DNA from: Desulfomonilia bacterium
Lineage (GTDB): Bacteria; Desulfobacterota; Desulfomonilia; UBA1062
Assembly: GCA_036567785.1 (NCBI GenBank)
Contig: DATCTV010000004.1
Location: 186,001 to 250,000 of the forward strand
DNA length: 64,000 bases
Direction: 5' to 3'
Of the stretch, positions 8,089 to 64,000 are shown piece after piece. Below the pieces are notes generated by a model. That model had not been told where the DNA came from, made no database searches, and saw nothing but the letters and a program-made list of their open reading frames with translations. The position numbers and the translations under genes were made by a program. Position 1 is the first letter of the stretch, and the number at the start of each line of letters is the position of its first letter.

Positions 8089-9018
8089 CTAATTTTCCGG
8101 CAGTATCATATTCTGTCTGATCATATGGGCCACCTTTATCGCATTGAGCCCGGCGATCCCGTCAACTACAACCTTTGATTTGCCCTTAACCGCATCGATG
8201 AAAGACCTTATCTCGGATTTGAGCGCATCGGATTCCGACATCTCCAGTCTTTTGTGTCCTATTTTCTTGTCCTGGCTCAGAGTGAATATGTCCACGGCGT
8301 TCTTTGCATAATCGATCGATATGTAGGCATCGGGCTGGAATATGCGAATCTTCCTCATAACATCCGCAGAGATGCGGCTTGCCGTTACATTCGCTATACA
8401 GCCAGATTCGAAGCGCAGTCTGGCGTTTGCTATATCGACATTATTCGTTAGCACCGGCACGCCTACCGCTTCAACAGAAACTATATTTGAATGAACGAGG
8501 GAAAGAATTATATCTATATCATGTATCATGAGGTCAAGTATCACATCGACATCCGTGCCCCTTTCCTTGAAGGTGCTTATCCTGTGGACCTCTATGAACA
8601 TGGGTTTTGTAATGCTGTCCCTGAGATTGGCGAATGCCGGATTGAATCTTTCCAGATGCCCTATCTGAAGGGTGGCACCGCCTTTTTCCGCCGCATCTAT
8701 GATTGCCTGAGATTCTTCTATTGTGGCACTCATGGGTTTTTCCAGCAGCACTGCTGTGCCATTCAACAAGAAGGGGATCGCCGTTTCACGGTGAAGAGAT
8801 GTGGGAACGACTATGCTGACTGCATCCACTTTTCCGATCAGTTCCGAATAATCAGTAACAGCGGCAGTGCCGGTTTCCAGTGCAATCTCTTTTGCCCTGT
8901 CGGGATCGATATCAGCCACCGCCACAAGCTCGACATCTTCCATTGCTGCATATTTCTGGGCGTGAAACCTGCCGAGATAACCTACACCAATAACCGCCGC
9001 CCGTATTTTATCGTTCAT
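8089..9018 (-). CDS. Gfo/Idh/MocA-family oxidoreductase in the lpx cluster (GnnA-like position)
   Basis: A 309-residue NAD(P)-dependent oxidoreductase. The Rossmann motif 'GVGYLGRFHA' is at the N-terminus, and 'LLEKPMSATIEE' is the typical Gfo/Idh/MocA active-site Lys-Pro motif. Lying directly after lpxA, it matches the place of gnnA, whose product oxidises UDP-GlcNAc at C3 before GnnB transamination to make 3-amino lipid A. No gnnB-like aminotransferase sits beside it, so amide-linked lipid A is only a possibility. The start at 9018 gives the normal N-terminus; an upstream ATG at 9054 adds 12 poorly conserved residues. Confidence 0.75.
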   Translation of the reverse strand: MNDKIRAAVIGVGYLGRFHAQKYAAMEDVELVAVADIDPDRAKEIALETGTAAVTDYSELIGKVDAVSIVVPTSLHRETAIPFLLNGTAVLLEKPMSATIEESQAIIDAAEKGGATLQIGHLERFNPAFANLRDSITKPMFIEVHRISTFKERGTDVDVILDLMIHDIDIILSLVHSNIVSVEAVGVPVLTNNVDIANARLRFESGCIANVTASRISADVMRKIRIFQPDAYISIDYAKNAVDIFTLSQDKKIGHKRLEMSESDALKSEIRSFIDAVKGKSKVVVDGIAGLNAIKVAHMIRQNMILPEN

Positions 9019-9077
9019 CTTTTTATTAAGCCTCTGCCCGGTCAGACTTTTCAAATATTCAAAGCCTGCGTCTTTAC

Positions 9078-31255: not shown

Positions 31256-32188
31256 TTAAATAGATTTGCACGCCTCAACTATATTAACCGGTCCGAACCC
31301 ATGCTTATCATAAAGATATTTTTCTGTCGCCACTTCACCGAATTTATCCGGTATGCCAAGACGCTTTACCCTGGTCGGGCATTTCTCAGAAAGCACTTCG
31401 CATACCGCTCCGCCGAGACCGCCTATTATTGTCTGATTTTCCACACTGACGACTTTCCTTGTTTTACTTGCCGAAGCAACAAGAGCAATTTCATCGAAAG
31501 GTTTTACTGACGGGTAATGCAGAACTTCCGCCATGATACCATCTGCTGCAAGCATATCTGCAGCTTTCAGCGATGATTTTGTCATATATCCGGTCGAGAC
31601 AATCGTTACATCGGAACCCTCTCTTAAGATTACAGCCTTATCCGGGTTAAATACATAGTTGTCATCAAAGAGCCGGGGCTCCTTCGAACGAATGAGCTGA
31701 AGATATGTAGGCTGTTTTGTCTTGGCCATATGTTTCATTACCGCCCTCAGTTCATAGGCATCGGCTGGCGCGTATACATGCATGTTTGGCATGGCGCGCA
31801 TTATCGCCATATCGGTAAAGTCCATGTGGGTTCCACCGTTTGATCCCTGCGTCAGGCCCGGAGCGGTTCCTACTATCTTTACATTGTTGTTCGCATACGC
31901 ACAGCTTATATATATCTGATCATACACTCTGCGGGATGCAAAGCATGTGAAAGTAGCGGCAAACGGAATCTTGCCCTCGGATGCAAGGCCGGCAGATATG
32001 CCTATCATATTGGCCTCGGCGACTCCCACATCTATAAAGTTACCGGGATTTTTTGAAGAAACCTCGGGGAACGTTCCAGACGCCTTCCCCAGATCAGCTT
32101 CAAGGCTTATTACATCGGGGTTCTCTGCAATAAGTTCGTTAAGTGTTTTTGCGTAAACCGTACGCATTTCCATTTCATGCCAGCTCAT
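31256..32188 (-). CDS. Split transketolase, C-terminal subunit
   Basis: A 310-residue protein holding the pyrimidine-binding and C-terminal domains of transketolase ('ISLEADLGKASGTF', 'FIDVGVAEANMIGISAGLA', 'FTCFASRRVYDQIYISCAY'). The E-A-N segment carries the glutamate that activates ThDP. It pairs with the N-terminal subunit 11 bases upstream. The start at 32188 has TAAGGAGGGAG. Two-gene transketolases serve the pentose phosphate pathway in many anaerobes, and the same architecture is used by sulfo-transketolases (SqwGH) that act on 6-deoxy-6-sulfofructose. Sequence alone does not tell them apart here. Confidence 0.85.
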   Translation of the reverse strand: MSWHEMEMRTVYAKTLNELIAENPDVISLEADLGKASGTFPEVSSKNPGNFIDVGVAEANMIGISAGLASEGKIPFAATFTCFASRRVYDQIYISCAYANNNVKIVGTAPGLTQGSNGGTHMDFTDMAIMRAMPNMHVYAPADAYELRAVMKHMAKTKQPTYLQLIRSKEPRLFDDNYVFNPDKAVILREGSDVTIVSTGYMTKSSLKAADMLAADGIMAEVLHYPSVKPFDEIALVASASKTRKVVSVENQTIIGGLGGAVCEVLSEKCPTRVKRLGIPDKFGEVATEKYLYDKHGFGPVNIVEACKSI

Positions 32189-32199
32189 AATCTCCCTCC

Positions 32200-33066
32200 T
32201 TATTCCTCGCCGTACGGCAGCCTGCACTCATATCCAAGGGCCTTGATATATTTTTCATAAGCGGTTTTGTCGCCTATCTTTATATTATGGCTCCCCACCT
32301 GCCCTTCAACTGCAGCATTGCCCATTCCCTTGATCGTATGAGCAATGATCATTGCCGGTTTTCCCTTTACAGCGATTGCCGCGGATATTTTCATGTTTAT
32401 ATCGTCCCAGTCATGGCCGTCCATTTCAAAAACCTCCCAGTTGAAAGCACGCCATTTATCAACAATAGGTTCCAATGTGACAACTTCATCCGTGGTACCG
32501 TCTATCTGCATTTTGTTATAATCCGTGATGGCGATAAGGTTATCGATCTTCCTGTGTCCGGCGAACATGGCGGCCTCCCAGACCTGGCCCTCATCGCTTT
32601 CACCATCACCCACTATGCAGAACACATTATGGTCTTTCCCGTCCATTTTGCCGGCAATAGCGGCGCCGAGAGCGCACGAGAGCCCCTGCCCCAAGGAACC
32701 GGCTGTAATGTCGACACCGGGTGTGCGTATCTGGTCAACATGGCTCGGCAGCCATGTCCCGTCCCGGTTTAGTGTAGTCAGCCACTGCATCGGAAAATAT
32801 CCCCGGTATGCAAGTGCGGCATAAAGTACTGGGCCTGCATGACCTTTCGAGAGAATCAGCCTGTCGCGGCCGTCCCATCTTGGCTCTTTAGGGTTAACTT
32901 TCATTATGCGCCAGTACAGGCTTATTATTGTCTCGACGAGACTCAGCGCACCACCGATATGCCCTGAACCCGAACGGCATATCATATCCGTGATGACAAA
33001 GCGGAATTCCTTCGCAAGCTCATCCGCTTTCTCATTGCTCCATGATTCCAGGAGTTCTTCGTACAT
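32200..33066 (-). CDS. Split transketolase, N-terminal (ThDP diphosphate-binding) subunit
   Basis: A 288-residue subunit with the ThDP motif 'GDGESDEGQVWEAAMFAGHRKIDNLIAITDYN' split here as GDGESDEGQ to NLIAITDYN, the catalytic region 'SGHIGGALS' and 'SKGHAGPVLYAALA'. It forms the active enzyme with the C-subunit. AGAGGAGAT precedes the ATG. The gene is divergent from dsrA across 211 bases that hold two palindromes, so it may share regulation with sulfite respiration. Confidence 0.88.
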   Translation of the reverse strand: MYEELLESWSNEKADELAKEFRFVITDMICRSGSGHIGGALSLVETIISLYWRIMKVNPKEPRWDGRDRLILSKGHAGPVLYAALAYRGYFPMQWLTTLNRDGTWLPSHVDQIRTPGVDITAGSLGQGLSCALGAAIAGKMDGKDHNVFCIVGDGESDEGQVWEAAMFAGHRKIDNLIAITDYNKMQIDGTTDEVVTLEPIVDKWRAFNWEVFEMDGHDWDDINMKISAAIAVKGKPAMIIAHTIKGMGNAAVEGQVGSHNIKIGDKTAYEKYIKALGYECRLPYGEE

Positions 33067-33277: not shown

Positions 33278-34468
33278 ATGTCGAAATCAGATACTCCGCT
33301 TCTGGATGAACTCGAAGAAGGCAAGTGGCCCAGTTTTGTAAAGGAAATCAAGCAGGCAGCCAAGAAAAGCCCAATGTCGGAAGACCTTCTTAAACAGCTT
33401 GAGCTCTCATACAAGGACAAAATCGGACACTGGAAGCATGGAGGTATTGTCGGCGTCAAGGGATACGGTTCAGGCGTCATCGGCAGATATACCGACCGGC
33501 CTGATCTCTTTCCCAATGTTCAGGCATTCCATACCTTAAGGGTCAATCATCCTGCCGGATGGTTCTATAAGACCGATGCACTGAGGACCCTTTGCGATAT
33601 ATGGGACAAGCATGGCAGCGGGCTCACGAATCTTCACGGCTCCACAGGAGACGCCATCCTGCTGGGAACAACGACCGATCACCTTCAGCCCTGTTTCAAT
33701 GATCTGTCCGAAGCGGGTTTCGATCTTGGCGGTTCCGGATCGGCTCTCAGAACACCGAGCTGCTGCGTAGGACCAGGCCGCTGTGAATGGGCCTGCGTGG
33801 ACAGCCTGGACCTCTGTTACAACCTGACAATGAGCTTCCAGGATGAAATCCATCGCCCCATGTTTCCATACAAGTTCAAGATCAAGATATCAGCCTGCCC
33901 TAATGACTGCGTTGCAGCCATTGCAAGGGCGGATTTTTCTGTTATCGGCACATGGAAGGGGGATATCGCCATAGATCAGACTGAAGTTGCGGCATATATC
34001 GATTCAGGACTGGATATTCAAAAGGAAGTCTGCAACCTGTGTCCGACCAGATGCATGGAATTAAAAGGCAGCACCCTCAAAATATACGATGAAGACTGCA
34101 CCCGGTGCATGCACTGCATCAATGTCATGCCAAAGGCTTTGAGGCCTGGCGATGAACGGGGAGCGACGATCCTTGTAGGAGGAAAAGCCCCCATAGTCGA
34201 GGGAGCGCTCATGTCCTGGGTTCTTGTACCATTCATGAAACTGGAACCTCCCTACGATGAACTCAAGGATCTTATATTCAAGATACAGGACTGGTGGAGT
34301 GAAAACGGCAAGTCACGCGAGAGGCTGGGTGAACTGATAAAAAGACTGGGTATGCGCTCGTTCCTCAAGGCCATGGATCTTCCTGCAGCCCCGCAGATGG
34401 TCAAGGCACCGAGGACAAACCCTTATGTCTTTTTCTGGCCTGAAGACATTAAGAAGGAGGAAAAGTAA
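33278..34468 (+). CDS. dsrA: Dissimilatory sulfite reductase, alpha subunit
   Basis: A 396-residue siroheme/[4Fe-4S] subunit. The siroheme-linked cluster ligands are C163-x5-C169 and C207-x3-C211. The inserted ferredoxin domain has C252, C255, C259 and C274, C277, C280. With DsrB it reduces sulfite and passes the sulfur to DsrC in the cytoplasm. Adjacent dsrD and the absence of dsrEFH argue for the reductive, not sulfur-oxidising, type. The protein is slightly shorter than many DsrA. AAGGAG lies before the ATG; dsrB begins one base after the stop. Confidence 0.96.
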
Positions 34469-56232: not shown

Positions 56233-56289
56233 TTGTTGACAATAGCGCATTATAGTTGTTTATTACGCAATATATACCAGGAGGTAAGT

Positions 56290-56694
56290 ATGCCTTATGT
56301 CGATTTCAATGACTTTCCTGCAGGTAAAGTCGGCAAACCGTTTGAACGGGAACTAAAGATAATTCTGTCCCCTGATATGAATCAGGATGTTGAAGGTTTT
56401 ACTTTCCTGATCTCAACGCTTGCACCCGATGGCGGATGCACGGATATGCACATGCATGATGATTCCGGCGAACTCATGATATTCATGTCCGGCAAAGGCA
56501 AGGCATGGCTGAAAGGCGAAGAGTACGAGATCAGACCCGGCACAGCCATTTATGCGCCTCCGTGCGTGCCCCATAAGACCATGAACACAGGCGATGTTCC
56601 ATTGATGATTGCCTGCGTTTTCGTTCCGTCCATATCAACAGACTATATAAGACAGAATATTGAAGCCGCACAGAAATCAGGCACATGCAAATGA
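56290..56694 (+). CDS. Cupin-domain protein
   Basis: A 134-residue single-domain cupin. The metal-binding motif 1 'DMHMHDDSGELMIFMSGKGKAW' is seen as H-x-H-x(4)-E, and motif 2 as 'PPCVPHKTMNTG'. Small cupins may be isomerases, dioxygenases or sensors. In this operon it could be a sugar or keto-acid isomerase or a regulatory domain. AGGAGG lies before the ATG at 56290; the end overlaps the next gene by 10 bases, indicating translational coupling. Confidence 0.75.
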   Translation: MPYVDFNDFPAGKVGKPFERELKIILSPDMNQDVEGFTFLISTLAPDGGCTDMHMHDDSGELMIFMSGKGKAWLKGEEYEIRPGTAIYAPPCVPHKTMNTGDVPLMIACVFVPSISTDYIRQNIEAAQKSGTCK

Positions 56695-58823
56695 AATATG
56701 ATTTTTTAAAGCGCATATCAGGGTTGAGGCAATCGGGAGCGAAAACAGTCCCCGAAGACGAGCTTAAAAAGATTCTCAGTCTCTATGGTGTGCCGGTTCC
56801 CGAAGGCAGACTGTGCAGAACCATGGATGAAGCAGCCGAATTCTCATCAGAAACGGGTTTCCCGGTTGTCCTCAAATTGTCATCTGACAAGATTCTTCAT
56901 AAAACCGAACTTAAAGGTGTAAGGCTCGATCTTTCCTCTAAAGAGGAGGTCCGAGAGGCCTTCAACGAAATGGACACGGACTTTAAAAAACAGAATATAG
57001 AAGGTTATCTTGGATTGCTCGTTGAAAAACAGGCCCCGGAAGGAACCGAGCTTATCATTGGACTGCAGCATGATAACGCATTCGGTCCCGTACTCATGAT
57101 GGGTCTTGGCGGCATTCTTACAGACCTTCTGAGAGATGTCGTATTCAGAACAATACCGCTCACCAGGAATGACATCCTTGAAGCGCTCGAACATTTGAAT
57201 TCATGGCCGCTGTTAAGCGGCTATCGCGGTAAAGCCCCGCTTGCCGTTGATAAAATCGTGGACGCCATCCATGCAATTGCATCATTCGGAACAGATTTTG
57301 CCGGTCAATATGAATCCATCGATTTCAACCCGCTTATAGCATCACCTGAAGGATGCATACTGGTTGACGCCAAGATGGTTATTTCGGATAAGGAAATTCC
57401 TGCGAAAACGTCTGCAATGGAAAGCCCGCGCGTTTCTCACATGACCGGTTTCTTTAATCCTGCGAGTGTTGCTGTTATTGGTGCATCGAATACACCTGGC
57501 AAAATCGGCTATACGATTCTTGATTCTCTTATCAACCTCAACTTCAAAGGCAAGGTCTACCCCATCAATCCCAATGTAAAAGAGGTGCTCGGCCTTAAAG
57601 CATATGCGTCGCTATCCGAGCTTCCCGAAATACCTGAGATGGTTGCAATAAGCGTGGGTCTTGAACTTATACCAGATATCATTACCGAAATGGGAAAGAC
57701 CGGCGCACATAACGCCTTCATCGTATCGGGAGGTGGCAAGGAACTTGGCGGAGAGCGTGCAGACATTGAAGGACGGATAAGTGCTCTTGCCCGTGCTAAC
57801 GATGTCAGGATCATAGGACCTAACTGCATAGGCAGTTTTGACGGCAACAACAGATTCGATTCTTTCTTCTATCCCAGGGGCAGACTGAAAAGGCCGGGCG
57901 GAGGCCCTGTCAGCTTTATCACGCAAAGCGGAACCTGGGGCTGCGCATTTCTTGAAAACGCTGCCGATACCGGTGTCAGCAAGATGGTAAGCTATGGCAA
58001 CCGGGTTGACGTTGACGAAGGAGACCTGATTGCCTACCTCGCGACCGATCCTGATACAAAGGTGATCGGCAGCTATCTTGAAGGACTGGGAGACGGCAGA
58101 AAATTCCTTGAAGGCGTAAATATTGCAAGAAGCGCAGGCAAACCCGTTGTTGTATTCAAGACCGGCCGGAATAAGGTATCCGCTCATGCAGCTGTCTCGC
58201 ATACTGGCGCATATGGAGGCAGTTATGAAATATACAAAGACGCCCTCGAGCAGGGAGGAGTAATCCTCACAGACAGCTTCCACGAACTGTATGCGGCCTG
58301 TGCCACTTTGGCACTTCAACCGCCCGCCCGGGGAAATCGTGTTGCCCTTGTATCTAACGGTGCGGGTCCTATGGTCAATGCTATTGACCTGTTTCCATCA
58401 AAGAACCTTGACCTCACCAGATTAAGCCGTGAATCCTTCAAAGCCATGCGCGATAAATTCAGCTTTTTCTACATAGTCGAAAATCCGGTGGATGTAACTG
58501 GTTCAGCTACAGGCGCAGATTATGAGTTCGTTATAGAAACGCTCATCAAGGATGACAACGTTGATATAATAATGCCATTCTTCGTATTCCAGAATGCGCC
58601 GCTTGATGAAAGCATCGTAGAACGGCTTGCCGCAATAAACGCCAGAAAGCTCAAACCCATTGTCTGCTGCTCCACAGGCGGGGCATACTCTGAAAAGATG
58701 GGGTCAGCGATAATAAAAACTGGCATACCCGTATTCACTCGCGTTGCGGAATGGGTGGCGGGCGCCTCGGCCCTGGCGCAATGGGCGAGGATAATTAAAA
58801 AAGAATTTCGAAGGGAGATTTAA
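56685..58823 (+). CDS. ADP-forming acyl-CoA synthetase (acetate-CoA ligase type), fused beta-alpha order
   Basis: A 712-residue fusion. An N-terminal ATP-grasp domain (about 20-230; 'VVLKLSSDKILHKTELKGV', 'ESIDFNPLI') is followed by a CoA-binding domain ('FFNPASVAVIGASNTPGKIGY') and the ligase domain with the phospho-His region 'AVSHTGAYGGSYE'. It converts an acyl-CoA, ADP and phosphate to acid, CoA and ATP, or the reverse. Known relatives use acetate, other short acids, or sulfoacetate (ADP-forming sulfoacetate-CoA ligase of Bilophila). Substrate cannot be read from sequence. Starts at 56685 or 56691. Confidence 0.85.
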   Translation: MQMKYDFLKRISGLRQSGAKTVPEDELKKILSLYGVPVPEGRLCRTMDEAAEFSSETGFPVVLKLSSDKILHKTELKGVRLDLSSKEEVREAFNEMDTDFKKQNIEGYLGLLVEKQAPEGTELIIGLQHDNAFGPVLMMGLGGILTDLLRDVVFRTIPLTRNDILEALEHLNSWPLLSGYRGKAPLAVDKIVDAIHAIASFGTDFAGQYESIDFNPLIASPEGCILVDAKMVISDKEIPAKTSAMESPRVSHMTGFFNPASVAVIGASNTPGKIGYTILDSLINLNFKGKVYPINPNVKEVLGLKAYASLSELPEIPEMVAISVGLELIPDIITEMGKTGAHNAFIVSGGGKELGGERADIEGRISALARANDVRIIGPNCIGSFDGNNRFDSFFYPRGRLKRPGGGPVSFITQSGTWGCAFLENAADTGVSKMVSYGNRVDVDEGDLIAYLATDPDTKVIGSYLEGLGDGRKFLEGVNIARSAGKPVVVFKTGRNKVSAHAAVSHTGAYGGSYEIYKDALEQGGVILTDSFHELYAACATLALQPPARGNRVALVSNGAGPMVNAIDLFPSKNLDLTRLSRESFKAMRDKFSFFYIVENPVDVTGSATGADYEFVIETLIKDDNVDIIMPFFVFQNAPLDESIVERLAAINARKLKPIVCCSTGGAYSEKMGSAIIKTGIPVFTRVAEWVAGASALAQWARIIKKEFRREI

Positions 58824-58824
58824 C

Positions 58825-59451
58825 ATGAAAATCGCAGTTATCAGCGAAGTCAGTGCAGTCGTGAAAAATCCTGATATAGTGGCTTCCCTTGAGGGACGAG
58901 GGCATGAAATCATAAATGCCGGCATGAAATCGGCGGATGACAAACCCGAACTGACATACATACAGACCGGGCTGCTTGCAGGACTACTTCTTGGAACAAA
59001 GAAGGTCGATATGGTTGTAGGCGGCTGCGGCACAGGATTGGGATTTCTTAATTCCGCTCTTCAATACCCCGGAGTAATGTGCGGTCTTCTATCCAACGAC
59101 CTGGACGCATGGCTCTTCGGCAAGATAAACGGCGGCAACTGCATAAGCCTTCCGCTCCTTGTAGGCTACGGCTGGGCGGGAGATATCAATCTCAAATTCA
59201 TATTCGACAAGCTCTTTTCCGTTACCGGATTCGGCAAAGGGTATCCGCCTCACAGGGAAGAATCTCAGCAGCAAAGCAGGAAATTATTTTTCGGGGTCTC
59301 GGAATCGACGCACAAACCGCTTGCGCAGATCATTTCAGACCTCGAAGATGACGTAATAAAACCTGCCCTTTTATTCCCCGGCATATCCGGCCTTCTCGAC
59401 ATCGACAATCTGCCGTCAGATATCAAGGACGCCATTAAAAGGAGGATCTAG
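58825..59451 (+). CDS. RpiB/LacA-family sugar isomerase
   Basis: A 208-residue member of the RpiB/LacAB isomerase family. 'MVVGGCGTGLGFLNSA' includes the active-site Cys68 and the conserved GTG loop. It is longer than true RpiB (about 150) and has a distinct C-terminus, so ribose 5-phosphate isomerase is not assured. Relatives isomerise tetrulose, pentose or hexose phosphates; SqwI, which isomerises 4-deoxy-4-sulfoerythrose, is also described as an isomerase of this type. The ATG has GGGAG and lies one base after the previous stop. Confidence 0.75.
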   Translation: MKIAVISEVSAVVKNPDIVASLEGRGHEIINAGMKSADDKPELTYIQTGLLAGLLLGTKKVDMVVGGCGTGLGFLNSALQYPGVMCGLLSNDLDAWLFGKINGGNCISLPLLVGYGWAGDINLKFIFDKLFSVTGFGKGYPPHREESQQQSRKLFFGVSESTHKPLAQIISDLEDDVIKPALLFPGISGLLDIDNLPSDIKDAIKRRI

Positions 59452-61305
59452 ATGAACAGACAGGAACGAGCAGCCGCGATAGCCAAATACGGCTGCATAG
59501 ATAATGCGATTGCCGCTCATGCGATCCCACAGTTTGTCGACATCAGTGTATCTGAAGCGATCGTTCTGGGTCTTCTGAAACAGGGCGTTACAAAGTTCTG
59601 CGCCATATTCGGTCACGGCACGACTGACATAGCGGAAGTTCTAAGGGTCTATGAAGAAGCAGGCCTTGTAAGGACCTTTAATGTCAGGCATGAAACGGCG
59701 GGTGCACATGCCATAACGGTGCTTAAAATGGTGACCGGAGAGACCGCTGCCATGATCACCTCCATAGGTCCCGGCGCCATGCATGCATTTGCGGGTTCGC
59801 TGGCCGCAGCATCCAACGGTGCCGGCGTATGGCATATCTACGGAGATGAGACCACTCAGGACGAAGGCTTCAACATGCAGCAGATTCCCGGAAACGAACA
59901 GGGTCTGTTCCTTAAAATGATGAGCCATATGGGCCGGGCGTATTCAGTTTATGAGCCATGGTCAGTTGTTTCAGCCCTCAGGGCCGGCGCCATAACAACA
60001 AGCGCCCAGTTTGCACAGCCGTTCTTCATGCTGGCGCCAATGAATGTGCAGCCTGTCATATTAAGGAATTTCAACCTTGCGGAACTGCCTGAAAGGGTTG
60101 ACATCCCCCTTCTCGAATGCGCCGATACCAATATTTTTCTCGATGCGGTCGAAGCCGTGAAGGCTGCACGTAAGATAACAATAAAGATAGGTCAGGGTGC
60201 CAGGGGCTGCGGCAGAGAAATAATCGAACTCGCAAACCTGATCGATGCGGCTATCGTTTCCGGACCTAACGCATCAGGAATTGTCCCCTATTCGGAGAAA
60301 CGCTACATGACGGTCGGAGGCTCGAAGGGTTCCATCTCAGGTAATTTCGCAATGAACGAGGCCGATCTGGTAATAATCATAGGCGCCCGGGCTGTCTGCC
60401 AGTGGGACTGCTCCGGAACCGCGTGGAAAAAGGCAAAAACCATAATCAACTTCAACATCAACCCCGTCCACGCCTTCCACTACAATAAAACGATAGCAAT
60501 CACAGGTGACGCAAAGTCAAATCTCAGGGCATTCATTGAATCCCTGACCGAGACATGCGCAGGAAAAAAAGAGGGCGCATGGACAAAGGCCATTATGAAA
60601 AAACGTGCGGAATGGACCGCTTTTAAAAACGAACGTTATTCCTGTACCGGGCTTGTTGATGCTGCCTGGAAACGAAAGGTGCTCACACAGCCTGTCGCAA
60701 TAAAGACAGTCTGCGACTTTGCCGATGCTGCAGGTGCAATCAAGCTGTTCGATGCAGGAGACGTACAGGCAAACGGATTCCAGATCGTGGAAGATAAAGT
60801 CGAAGGCCAGACCTTCACGGACACAGGCGCTTCATACATGGGCCTTGCATCTTCAGGTGTGCTGATCGGCGCCATGTCTGATGTGTATCCAGTAGCCTTC
60901 TGCGGAGACGGCAGTTTCATGATGAACCCTCAAATCCTGATCGACGGCGTCCAGCACGGGGCAAAAGGCATGATAGTCATTTTCGACAACCGCAGGATGG
61001 CGGCGATAACGGGCCTGCAATACGCCCAGTACTCGAAGGAATATAAAACAAACGATACCGTGGCTGTCGATTATGTGGCAATGGCTAATTCGGTCAAGGG
61101 TGTCAAAGGCATATTCGGAGGATATACTGTTAAAGAACTTAAAAAAGCACTGGCCGAGGCTCATGCGTTCAAAGGGCTTTCTCTTGTCCATGTGCCTGTT
61201 TATAACGGCCCTGATGAACTTGGAGGCATGGGTGTTTTCGGAGACTGGAATGTCGGCAACTGGTGTGAACGCGTACAGGTGGAGCATCACAAAATAGGCC
61301 TTTAA
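59452..61305 (+). CDS. IolD-like ThDP-dependent enzyme
   Basis: A 617-residue ThDP enzyme. 'CAIFGHGTTDIAEVL' matches the IolD-type 'FGHG' start, activating Glu81 is in 'VRHETAGAHA', and the cofactor motif 'FCGDGSFMMNPQILI...FDNRRM' is present. The C-terminal 'GDWNVGNWCERVQVEH' parallels the IolD tail 'WHVGVAEVAE'. IolD hydrolyses a cyclic diketone in inositol breakdown, but overall similarity is moderate and no iolE/iolC/iolJ genes are visible. It is best regarded as a new member with an unknown C-C-cleaving substrate. AGGAGG precedes the ATG. Confidence 0.7.
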   Translation: MNRQERAAAIAKYGCIDNAIAAHAIPQFVDISVSEAIVLGLLKQGVTKFCAIFGHGTTDIAEVLRVYEEAGLVRTFNVRHETAGAHAITVLKMVTGETAAMITSIGPGAMHAFAGSLAAASNGAGVWHIYGDETTQDEGFNMQQIPGNEQGLFLKMMSHMGRAYSVYEPWSVVSALRAGAITTSAQFAQPFFMLAPMNVQPVILRNFNLAELPERVDIPLLECADTNIFLDAVEAVKAARKITIKIGQGARGCGREIIELANLIDAAIVSGPNASGIVPYSEKRYMTVGGSKGSISGNFAMNEADLVIIIGARAVCQWDCSGTAWKKAKTIINFNINPVHAFHYNKTIAITGDAKSNLRAFIESLTETCAGKKEGAWTKAIMKKRAEWTAFKNERYSCTGLVDAAWKRKVLTQPVAIKTVCDFADAAGAIKLFDAGDVQANGFQIVEDKVEGQTFTDTGASYMGLASSGVLIGAMSDVYPVAFCGDGSFMMNPQILIDGVQHGAKGMIVIFDNRRMAAITGLQYAQYSKEYKTNDTVAVDYVAMANSVKGVKGIFGGYTVKELKKALAEAHAFKGLSLVHVPVYNGPDELGGMGVFGDWNVGNWCERVQVEHHKIGL

Positions 61306-61318
61306 GGGAGGGTATGAC

Positions 61319-62809
61319 ATGATCAATGTGGCTCTTGTAGGTCTGGGCAGGATAGCGGATGTCCATTATCCCGGCTATGTCGGAAACAAGGATGCGCAGA
61401 TTCTTGCAGTCTGCGATACGAATGAGGCTACCGCCTTGAGACGAAAAGCCGAATGGAACATTCGAAAACATTACACCAGCTTTGATGAGGTACTTGCTGA
61501 TAATGAAATAGATGCGGTCGAGATACTGACACCTACAATGATGCATGCTGAAATGACGATAAAAGCGCTTGCCGCTGGCAAGCATGTAGCTGTCCAGAAA
61601 CCGATGGCAAATACCCTGGCCGAGGCTGACGCCATGATAGCCGCCGCAAAAAAGGCCGGTAAGATTCTCAAGGTCTCAGACAACTATGTCTTCTACCCGC
61701 CCACCCTGCTGGCAAAAAAGCTGATGGAAGATGGTGAAATAGGGACGCCGCATAATATAAGGATAAAGCTCATAAGCGGAGGCTCGGGCGGCTGGGAGGT
61801 TCCCTCATCCGCATGGGCATGGCGGGTCAAGGAAGGCCAGGAAGGCAGAGGTCTCCAGACATTCGACCACGGCCATCACCTCTGGGCCACTACATGGTTT
61901 CTTCTTGGCGATATTGAAAGGGTGGCATCATGGATAGACTATGTTGACGATGGAGTGATAGACAGTCCGGCCGTTATAATGTGGAAGCACAAGGACGGCA
62001 TGAAATACGGGATGTGCGAATATACATACGGAAACGATCTTGCAATACCTTCCAAATATTACGGCAATGATGAATGGATTGAAATCAGCGGCACAAAAGG
62101 CATCTTAATAATCAACCGCTGTACGGGCCTGCTCAGGGAAGGACCTGCCGTGAGCCTTTTCAACGGTTCATGGAAGCATTTCGACGCACCGGATGACTGG
62201 GGCGAGGGTTTCAAAGGCTCGACGCTCAATTTCATCAATACGATACTCGGAAAGGAAAAGCCGCTGCTCTCAGCGGAAGAAGGCAGATATATCCTGAAGT
62301 TTTCCATTGCCATACAGAAATCAAACAGGCTTCACCGCGAGGTATATCTGTCGGAACTCGATTCAAAGGTGCCTGCGCTTGTTGCATGTTTCAATCGTGC
62401 CAGGAATATATATAAAAAAATGCCGAAGAAGAATGTATTCGAGATGCTGGGCATAGGCGGCAACACAGAGCAGTACGCCGCTCAGGCTGAAAAGCTCACG
62501 AAGGAGCTTGCGGAAAGATTCAATCCTGCGGCCGCCGAGGGCTGGTCAACGGTAATGGGCCTTCAGCTGACACCTGAAGGAAGCGCTCCTTCCATGAAAT
62601 TCACAATGAGGGTAAAGGACGGCAAGGCCGAGCTTACGGAAGGTTCGCTCCCGGACGATGCTGTGTTTACCATTTCAATCCCGGCGGGAACATGGGCCGC
62701 CATCCTTCTGAAAAAGAAAAAGGTCGAGATGGCCTTTATGCAGGGTAAACTTAAGATCCAGGGCAAGAGCGAAGAAGCCCTTAAGCTCAAGGCCGCATTC
62801 GGACTTTAA
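61319..62809 (+). CDS. Gfo/Idh/MocA oxidoreductase fused to an SCP2 domain
   Basis: A 496-residue fusion. Residues 1-370 form a Gfo/Idh/MocA dehydrogenase: 'VALVGLGRIADVHYPG' Rossmann motif, 'VAVQKPMANTLAEA' with the Lys-Pro pair, and 'HGHHLWATTWFLLG' with a conserved His in the active site. Residues about 385-496 form a sterol-carrier-protein-2 fold ('FTISIPAGTWAAILL...MQGKLKIQGKSEEALKLK'). SCP2 domains bind lipids or hydrophobic ligands, which is unexpected on a sugar dehydrogenase. The substrate may therefore be lipid-linked, or the domain may act in assembly. GGGAGGG precedes the ATG. Confidence 0.75.
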   Translation: MINVALVGLGRIADVHYPGYVGNKDAQILAVCDTNEATALRRKAEWNIRKHYTSFDEVLADNEIDAVEILTPTMMHAEMTIKALAAGKHVAVQKPMANTLAEADAMIAAAKKAGKILKVSDNYVFYPPTLLAKKLMEDGEIGTPHNIRIKLISGGSGGWEVPSSAWAWRVKEGQEGRGLQTFDHGHHLWATTWFLLGDIERVASWIDYVDDGVIDSPAVIMWKHKDGMKYGMCEYTYGNDLAIPSKYYGNDEWIEISGTKGILIINRCTGLLREGPAVSLFNGSWKHFDAPDDWGEGFKGSTLNFINTILGKEKPLLSAEEGRYILKFSIAIQKSNRLHREVYLSELDSKVPALVACFNRARNIYKKMPKKNVFEMLGIGGNTEQYAAQAEKLTKELAERFNPAAAEGWSTVMGLQLTPEGSAPSMKFTMRVKDGKAELTEGSLPDDAVFTISIPAGTWAAILLKKKKVEMAFMQGKLKIQGKSEEALKLKAAFGL

Positions 62810-62824
62810 CAGGAGATTTTGAAA

Positions 62825-63286
62825 GTGACATACAATACGATAAAAATGTCGAAGAAAAAAAAGATCGCCCTCGTCGCCCATGACAACAAGAAAGTCGAAA
62901 TGCTCGAGTGGGCAAAATTCAATAAAATTCTTCTGGCCCAGCATAAAATATTCGCAACAGGTACGACAGGGAGGCTCCTTGAGGAAGTCCTCGGCATCAA
63001 AGTAAATAAGCTTCAGAGCGGCCCGCTGGGAGGCGACCAGCAGATAGGCGCGATGATAGTAGGCGGAGAAATCGATTTTATGATTTTTTTCTGGGACCCC
63101 CTTGAACCCATGTCCCATGATACCGATATCAAGGCTCTTTTAAGAATGGCCGCTGTCTGGAACATTCCGATTGCCTGCAACCGCTCGACCGCCGATTTCA
63201 TGATATCGTCACCGCTTATGGATGAAGACTACGAAAGGATAGTGCCCAATTATTCGGATTATCAGAACAGGAAAATAGAGCACTGA
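62825..63286 (+). CDS. mgsA: Methylglyoxal synthase
   Basis: A 153-residue MgsA. 'IALVAHDNKK' with the catalytic Asp region, 'FATGTTGRLLEEV', 'LQSGPLGGDQQIGAMI' and 'FFWDPLEPMSHDTDI' (catalytic Asp and His) are all conserved. It converts dihydroxyacetone phosphate to methylglyoxal and phosphate, a bypass when triose phosphates accumulate. The GTG at 62825, nine bases after AGGAG, aligns with the E. coli N-terminus; a TTG at 62819 and an ATG at 62846 are alternatives. Its place here suggests the operon produces triose phosphate. Confidence 0.9.
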   Translation: MTYNTIKMSKKKKIALVAHDNKKVEMLEWAKFNKILLAQHKIFATGTTGRLLEEVLGIKVNKLQSGPLGGDQQIGAMIVGGEIDFMIFFWDPLEPMSHDTDIKALLRMAAVWNIPIACNRSTADFMISSPLMDEDYERIVPNYSDYQNRKIEH

Positions 63287-63300
63287 ATGGTGCTTTAATT

Positions 63301-64000
63301 ATGGAAACGCCCGATGCATTCAAGGTATTTGTCCTTGACATAGACGGAGCAGTTACAAGGCAGGAAAGGCTTATGGCCCGGTACCAGCCTGCCGTAATTC
63401 CATACCTGCACAAATCAGAGGCTCTCAGATACTGGTGCAGTCTTACTGAAATTGAACAGCTCAGAGATGTGTTCACCTCTTCTGCCCCATCATCCGGTAG
63501 AAAAGTCATCTTCTATGGTTCGGGCGACTACCACCACCTTGCCTTTCTCTGGATCAGCCTGATCAAGGAGCCTGCCACAGTAATCCACTTCGACGACCAT
63601 TCCGATTTCTGGAAAACCCCTAACCGGAACTTCATCCACTTCGGCTGCTGGGTGGTTAATACACTTAAGCTGCCCAATATCAGGAAGGTGATACAGTTAG
63701 GCGTAGACGGCGATTTCGATATGAACTTGGAGACCCCCTTCCCCATGGGCCCGATTGGCCACGTAATGAGACTCCTGCATGATGGGAGGATAGAGGTCTA
63801 TCCAAACTCCATGCGGCGCTCGCTACTTCTCGGAAGGATCAAGGGAAGGCTTCCATGCGTGGAGTTCGAGCCCGGACTTCTGACATCGCAAGCAAATTGG
63901 AAGAACATGCGCGACAACGGCGGCATCGAAGCAACCCTTGAAAGCGTCCTGCCGCGCATCACTACGGATGCTGTTTACCTGACCATCGACAAGGATTGCC
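63301..64000 (+). CDS. Arginase/ureohydrolase-fold protein (UPF0489-like), partial
   Basis: An open frame from ATG 63301 to the window edge, 233 residues visible and continuing beyond. 'VIHFDDHSDFW' looks like the D-x-H-x-D metal motif of the arginase/deacetylase fold, and 'TIDKD' near the edge like its second D-x-D motif. 'YGSGDYHHLAFLW' is shared with UPF0489-type proteins. It follows mgsA by 14 bases. No substrate can be given; hydrolysis of a guanidino or amide bond would fit the fold. Confidence 0.6.
   Translation, partial: METPDAFKVFVLDIDGAVTRQERLMARYQPAVIPYLHKSEALRYWCSLTEIEQLRDVFTSSAPSSGRKVIFYGSGDYHHLAFLWISLIKEPATVIHFDDHSDFWKTPNRNFIHFGCWVVNTLKLPNIRKVIQLGVDGDFDMNLETPFPMGPIGHVMRLLHDGRIEVYPNSMRRSLLLGRIKGRLPCVEFEPGLLTSQANWKNMRDNGGIEATLESVLPRITTDAVYLTIDKDC

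Follow-up and report, generated by a model that had tools for sequence, protein, structure and literature searches.

What is a lipid-carrier fold doing on a sugar-type dehydrogenase? The question is posed by a gene in a 64,000-nucleotide stretch of DNA from a Desulfomonilia bacterium (here called the window), which a preliminary description, made from the letters alone, had read as a complete Gfo/Idh/MocA enzyme joined to a C-terminal SCP2 domain with the pattern ‘MQGKLKIQGK’. The open reading frame (ORF) at 61319–62809 on the forward strand encodes an intact fusion protein of 496 amino acids; it starts with ATG, and the purine-rich GGGAGGG stretch that precedes this codon is a plausible ribosome-binding sequence. 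The protein runs from the dehydrogenase through a variable helical linker into the SCP2 domain:

61319..62353, + strand: Gfo/Idh/MocA dehydrogenase part, aa 1–345 (Pfam; alignments of 6–7 homologues)
62354..62455, + strand: variable linker, mostly helical, aa 346–379 (drop in identity; helices in the AlphaFold model)
62456..62806, + strand: SCP2 domain, aa 380–496, with the Pfam match at aa 402–494 (PF02036; PDB profile match; model topology)

Pfam and a profile comparison with the PDB bore out this reading, and in the domain search that the preliminary description had called for, both domains exceeded their Pfam cut-offs. PF01408 (GFO_IDH_MocA) matches aa 2–119 with an E value of 8.4e-28 and, together with the C-terminal domains GFO_IDH_MocA_C3 (E 6e-11) and GFO_IDH_MocA_C (E 7.5e-9), which reach aa 340, places the protein in the family. 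SCP2 (PF02036) matches aa 402–494 with an E value of 6.1e-12 and a score of 46.2 bits (cut-off 21.3). K94 (in QKP), D183 and H187 are invariant in the fusion orthologues (alignments of 6–7 homologues), so that both the lysine of the (E/Q)KP motif and the Asp...His pair are present; we take these to be the residues that family members generally use for catalysis. A sequence profile of the C-terminal 115 residues, built from 21 orthologues, matched rabbit SCP2 in the PDB (1qnd, 2c0l and 1c44; E 9e-9 to 3e-8); further matches were SCP2-like proteins of archaea and, in the peroxisomal multifunctional enzyme, the SCP2-like domain. The ‘MQGKLKIQGK’ segment aligns with ‘FQGKLKITGN’ of rabbit SCP2, and Trp459 of the SCP2 part does not vary among the 21 sequences. 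A chance C-terminal match was rejected on the strength of the PDB profile match and the conservation of SCP2 across fusions.

Like other Gfo/Idh/MocA oxidoreductases—IolG, scyllo-inositol/L-glucose dehydrogenase (5ya8) and the C-glycoside 3-oxidase DgpA (7xr9)—the fusion has a Rossmann and an alpha/beta domain with the conserved Lys and Asp...His, but it adds the 115-residue C-terminal SCP2 domain, and QKP replaces the usual EKP. That domain resembles the SCP2/nonspecific lipid-transfer protein (1qnd and 1c44) and the SCP2-like domain of MFE-2 (1ikt) in profile match and AlphaFold topology; in contrast to them, the putative carrier is joined to a Gfo/Idh/MocA enzyme and has the invariant Trp459.

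An AlphaFold2 model of the fusion protein, built on a four-sequence alignment, has a mean pLDDT of 78.9, with values of 77–91 over residues 391–496. The linker is modelled as helices and falls below a pLDDT of 50 at aa 370–380. The C-terminal elements follow the order helix, three-stranded sheet, strand, two helices, strand, helix, an order that fits the SCP2 topology; the C terminus of the fusion is thus modelled with an SCP2-like alpha/beta topology. The preliminary description had asked for a structure prediction, which might have revealed no SCP2 fold at the C terminus; this outcome did not occur, because the modelled topology and the sequence both match SCP2.

The fusion is real and has been conserved across two phyla, in no fewer than 20 bacterial genomes. 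Full-length copies occur in 17 of the 345 Spirochaetota genomes sampled (one more is interrupted at a contig end) and in 3 of 345 genomes from the phylum of the window, Desulfobacterota (the window genome, G054 and G091); in G154, also of this phylum, the fusion is split across contig ends. A genome of the same family found among the close relatives (G002) also holds it, and the fusions L002 and L003 were found separately. None of 398 Pseudomonadota genomes, a set without a positive control, had a fusion match at E 1e-60. The architecture is therefore rare in the sampled phyla, in agreement with the earlier view that it is unusual, and the many orthologues led us to reject a lone oddity or assembly artefact. 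A literature search for a Gfo/Idh–SCP2 fusion or its pathway returned nothing relevant.

Among 23 fusions, pairwise identity averages 57% in the dehydrogenase, 33% in the linker (aa 345–387) and 45% in SCP2; as SCP2 is better conserved than the linker, it is under constraint, and the fusion is selectively maintained. In a phylogenetic tree, all fusions fall into one clade with 100/100 support, the inner branching of which is poorly resolved. Because this clade also contains two SCP2-less genes (L078 and L079), the simplest reading of the tree would be one gain and one probable loss, compatible with a single origin.

Within the window, the fusion gene is the last of five genes, in the order cupin, ADP-forming CoA ligase, RpiB/DhuI-like isomerase, IolD-like ThDP enzyme and fusion, that are separated by gaps of 0–13 bp or overlap by 10 bp. 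The neighbours of the fusion gene are:

56287..56694, + strand: small cupin (Pfam Cupin_2, E 3e-14); kept in the same place in Spirochaetota
56685..58823, + strand: ADP-forming acyl-CoA ligase of the fused alpha–beta type (Pfam/NCBIfam)
58825..59451, + strand: RpiB-family isomerase of the NF006753/PRK09273 type (NCBIfam, 176.8 bits against a cut-off of 137)
59452..61305, + strand: ThDP-dependent enzyme, a distant IolD relative (TIGR04377; alignment)
62819..63286, + strand: methylglyoxal synthase, 9 bp 3′ of the fusion gene (TIGR00160, above cut-off)
63301..63999, + strand: 5′ part of an arginase-like protein, 14 bp further on and running past the window (Pfam Arginase, E 1.8e-6; full ORF in L037)

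The ThDP enzyme scores 114 bits with the IolD model TIGR04377, far under the equivalog cut-off of 715, and so does not qualify as IolD; it has in common with IolD an FGHG motif that is absent from Xsc in the alignment. The nearest solved structures to the isomerase are 2ppw, 4u8e/4u8f (gbs1892), 3c5y and 3ono (phmmer E 1e-41 to 8e-38), with 4u8e/4u8f matched at E 1.6e-40. We take gbs1892 to be DhuI. The family of the window isomerase is the one to which DhuI is assigned (PMC12838403); in contrast to the DhuD/DhuI system, the window gene has no adjoining DhuD and lies in the context of an IolD-like enzyme.

Across Spirochaetota, the genes of the window operon recur, there accompanied by genes for a beta-keto-acid cleavage enzyme and an IclR regulator. 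In place of those genes, the L001–L003 clusters, which also hold RpiB, have a split transketolase—found near the fusion in these clusters alone, among the loci compared—and a CoA-acylating malonate/methylmalonate-semialdehyde dehydrogenase, which in L001 scores above its cut-off and is of the kind that acts at the end of inositol catabolism. Two Spirochaetota loci (L092 and L093) keep the window gene order exactly, plus an inserted beta-keto-acid cleavage gene, and in several Spirochaetota a sugar-type MFS_2 symporter adjoins the fusion gene. No lipid-handling gene was seen as a conserved neighbour of the fusion operon. Most fusion genomes encode the ThDP enzyme, including five (G054, G091, G154, G497 and G582) in which it was not found beside the fusion gene; an orthologue was not found in another five, namely four Spirochaetota (G516, G480, G543 and G573) and G002, which is 77% complete. 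The fusion sits in, or co-occurs with, an uncharacterised operon predicted to break down ring sugars.

The ThDP enzyme also occurs apart from the fusion. On Labrenzia and Sinorhizobium plasmids, it (49–51% identity) lies beside a related SCP2-less dehydrogenase (37–38%), and its neighbours include an IlvD/Edd dehydratase and an aldehyde dehydrogenase; on plasmids of Salipiger and Phaeobacter, the ThDP enzyme occurs with the aldehyde dehydrogenase and the dehydratase but not with the related dehydrogenase. G116 likewise encodes an SCP2-less relative alongside the same ThDP enzyme. Because such SCP2-less dehydrogenases accompany the same partner, SCP2 is unnecessary for the core reaction.

A second line of evidence comes from SCP2 genes that are not fused. 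At two other loci of the window genome (L035 and L036), a free-standing SCP2 gene adjoins a Gfo/Idh gene. In the first (L035:7093–12209), SCP2 and Gfo/Idh form a module with an M24 creatinase-like protein, two SDRs and a beta-keto-acid cleavage enzyme, and this module is conserved in G004 (L115). The second (L036:8432–16122) comprises an SCP2 gene, a gene for a 755-aa Gfo/Idh–M24 peptidase fusion and, after these, genes for a glycyl radical enzyme and a radical SAM protein; its SCP2 and Gfo/Idh–M24 genes recur in a Spirochaetota genome (G537, L116). Two adjacencies were seen among 10 loci versus 0.09 expected by chance (P ~0.003), although L035 and L036 are related to one another and are therefore not two independent events. 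The free-standing SCP2 proteins had no match when searched against plasmids. Because the pairs recur elsewhere, we regard the partnership as genuine and, as the fusion itself is real, rare and selectively maintained, a functional link between SCP2 and the dehydrogenase is well supported.

Given the domain architecture, its conservation, its operon context and the recurring pairing of Gfo/Idh and SCP2 genes, we favour, with slightly less than even confidence, an NAD(P)-dependent polyol, cyclitol or glycoside dehydrogenase, the SCP2 domain of which would hold the substrate by a non-polar part, in a ring-opening pathway with an IolD-like enzyme. The dehydrogenase would oxidize a hydroxyl of a ring polyol—a cyclitol, or the sugar ring of a glycoside—to a keto-ring, which the ThDP enzyme encoded next door would open; ring hydrolysis by this enzyme is a guess, because its score lies so far below the IolD cut-off. 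The RpiB/DhuI-like isomerase may rearrange the product, perhaps with the help of the cupin, and in Spirochaetota the beta-keto-acid cleavage enzyme and ADP-forming CoA ligase would yield CoA esters and ATP. SCP2, in turn, would bind an aglycone, acyl or aromatic group and present the polar ring to the active site. Analogy with alkylsulfatases and the peroxisomal multifunctional enzyme, which have SCP2-like domains, makes binding of the non-polar part of the substrate the most likely role of the fused domain. The alkylsulfatases SdsA1, SdsAP and Pisa1 similarly carry a C-terminal SCP2-like domain on an unrelated catalytic domain and act on a hydrophobic substrate, but they are metallo-beta-lactamase hydrolases, whereas the fusion belongs to a dehydrogenase family. 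The lipid-linked or hydrophobic substrate of the preliminary description is a hypothesis drawn from SCP2 homology.

The main rival to substrate holding is a structural or regulatory tail, in which SCP2 would serve dimerization, protection of the active site or docking to the ThDP enzyme, would bind no lipid and would leave the enzyme with an ordinary hydrophilic polyol; we consider this quite possible, if on balance somewhat doubtful. SCP2-like accessory domains do occur in enzymes such as alkylsulfatases, the dimer interface of which draws residues from all three domains (PMC5426288). Five Spirochaetota genomes have no SCP2 domain other than the fused one and so retain no general role for it as a lipid carrier; the invariant Trp459 might fill the SCP2 pocket, and the accompanying Spirochaetota transporter (MFS_2) is of a sugar type. 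However, SCP2 genes also stand alone beside Gfo/Idh genes, which suggests that SCP2 acts as a diffusible partner and not as a mere tail, and the probable loss of SCP2 in L078 and L079, which would make the domain dispensable for the dehydrogenase fold, also speaks against a structural function.

Much less probable is a transketolase-type pathway for a sulfosugar (sulfoquinovose, possibly sulfolipid), with the fusion acting on the sulfosugar or its lipid glycoside. The split transketolase would then equate to SqwGH, the RpiB-family isomerase to SqwI and the ADP-forming CoA ligase to SqwKL, and transketolase, PF02502 isomerase and ligase are indeed common to both systems. In support, SqwI is a PF02502 protein and SqwGH a transketolase (PMC9594981), Spirochaetota variants of this pathway use SqwD and an ADP-forming SqwKL (PMC12890257), and NAD-dependent sulfoquinovosidases have a Rossmann-plus-alpha/beta fold near that of Gfo/Idh enzymes (PMC10755693). 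The L001–L003 clusters combine RpiB and an aldehyde dehydrogenase with a split transketolase, and Xsc and dsr genes occur in the window genome. The window itself also encodes a transketolase:

31256..33066, − strand: split transketolase, outside the fusion operon (~37–45% to the L001–L003 cluster pair)

By contrast, the IolD-like and beta-keto-acid cleavage enzymes present in the fusion clusters have no role in a sulfo-transketolase pathway, the L001 aldehyde dehydrogenase is of the malonate/methylmalonate type, and a transketolase lies near the fusion in L001–L003 only. No gene for an SqvD-type isomerase (PF02952), which would be expected in one cluster with SqwGH and SqwI, was recognised in the L001–L003 or L087–L099 operons, part of whose ORFs were scanned with Pfam, and no sulfoquinovosidase was among the best 60 PDB matches listed.

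Inositol catabolism (IolG, IolD, IolB and IolA) also combines a Gfo/Idh dehydrogenase, an IolD-like ThDP enzyme and an isomerase, and the L001–L003 clusters share its CoA-acylating semialdehyde dehydrogenase; the fusion operon differs in having no IolE, IolB or IolC and instead an RpiB-family isomerase, an ADP-forming CoA ligase and a beta-keto-acid cleavage enzyme. A classical inositol operon lies ~115 kb upstream on the same contig as the window (L111:7580–13329), with iolB-, iolD-, iolE- and iolG-like genes and an isopropylmalate-dehydrogenase-like gene. That the fusion is an ordinary myo-inositol 2-dehydrogenase of the standard pathway is highly improbable and was rejected because, even though IolG (TIGR04380) is its best NCBIfam match and its partner is IolD-like, the score of 111 bits is far below the equivalog cut-off of 355, this separate operon gives the window genome IolE and an IolG-like dehydrogenase that lacks SCP2, and IolE above cut-off was not found in 10 of 12 genomes tested.

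The suggested tie to sulfonolipids found no support. Positions 33278–53409 of the window encode dsrAB- and dsrMKJOP-like genes, acetate kinase, Xsc, a class III aminotransferase and a PLP decarboxylase, which look like a pathway for taurine or sulfonate dissimilation to sulfite; Xsc alone gave a clear positive against a curated model (833 bits versus a cut-off of 676), and the dsr genes and ackA were assigned from translations. A sulfonolipid link was rejected, as these sulfur genes fit sulfonate dissimilation.

If SCP2 of the fusion binds a hydrophobic moiety, the fusion would point to ring oxidation of lipid- or aromatic-linked sugars or cyclitols, and would give bacterial SCP2 domains a testable role. 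More speculatively, and we think this unlikely, an anaerobic pathway in Spirochaetota and dsr-bearing bacteria could open the polyol or sugar ring of amphiphiles such as glycolipids and hopanoid or aromatic glycosides: SCP2 would hold the non-polar part, the dehydrogenase would oxidize the ring and the IolD-like hydrolase would cleave it directly, bypassing glycosidases, with modules of SCP2, Gfo/Idh, M24 and beta-keto-acid cleavage enzymes as sister systems. The present data add a stable dehydrogenase–SCP2 architecture and a conserved operon predicted to break down a ring substrate in Spirochaetota and dsr-bearing bacteria.

Further genes carry one or other of the two domains. A further Gfo/Idh gene (8089–9054 of the window) lies between lpxA- and lpxB-like genes and possibly serves an amino-sugar step of lipid A. 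Elsewhere, fucose-isomerase-like, class II aldolase, PfkB kinase, GH42-like and Gfo/Idh genes, read from translations, occur together (L038:2447–10708) and could be a sugar or sulfosugar cluster. Within the window genome, the SCP2 nearest to the fused domain belongs to a protein (L007:1069–2256) that carries a ChsH2-type zinc ribbon and two SCP2 domains in tandem.
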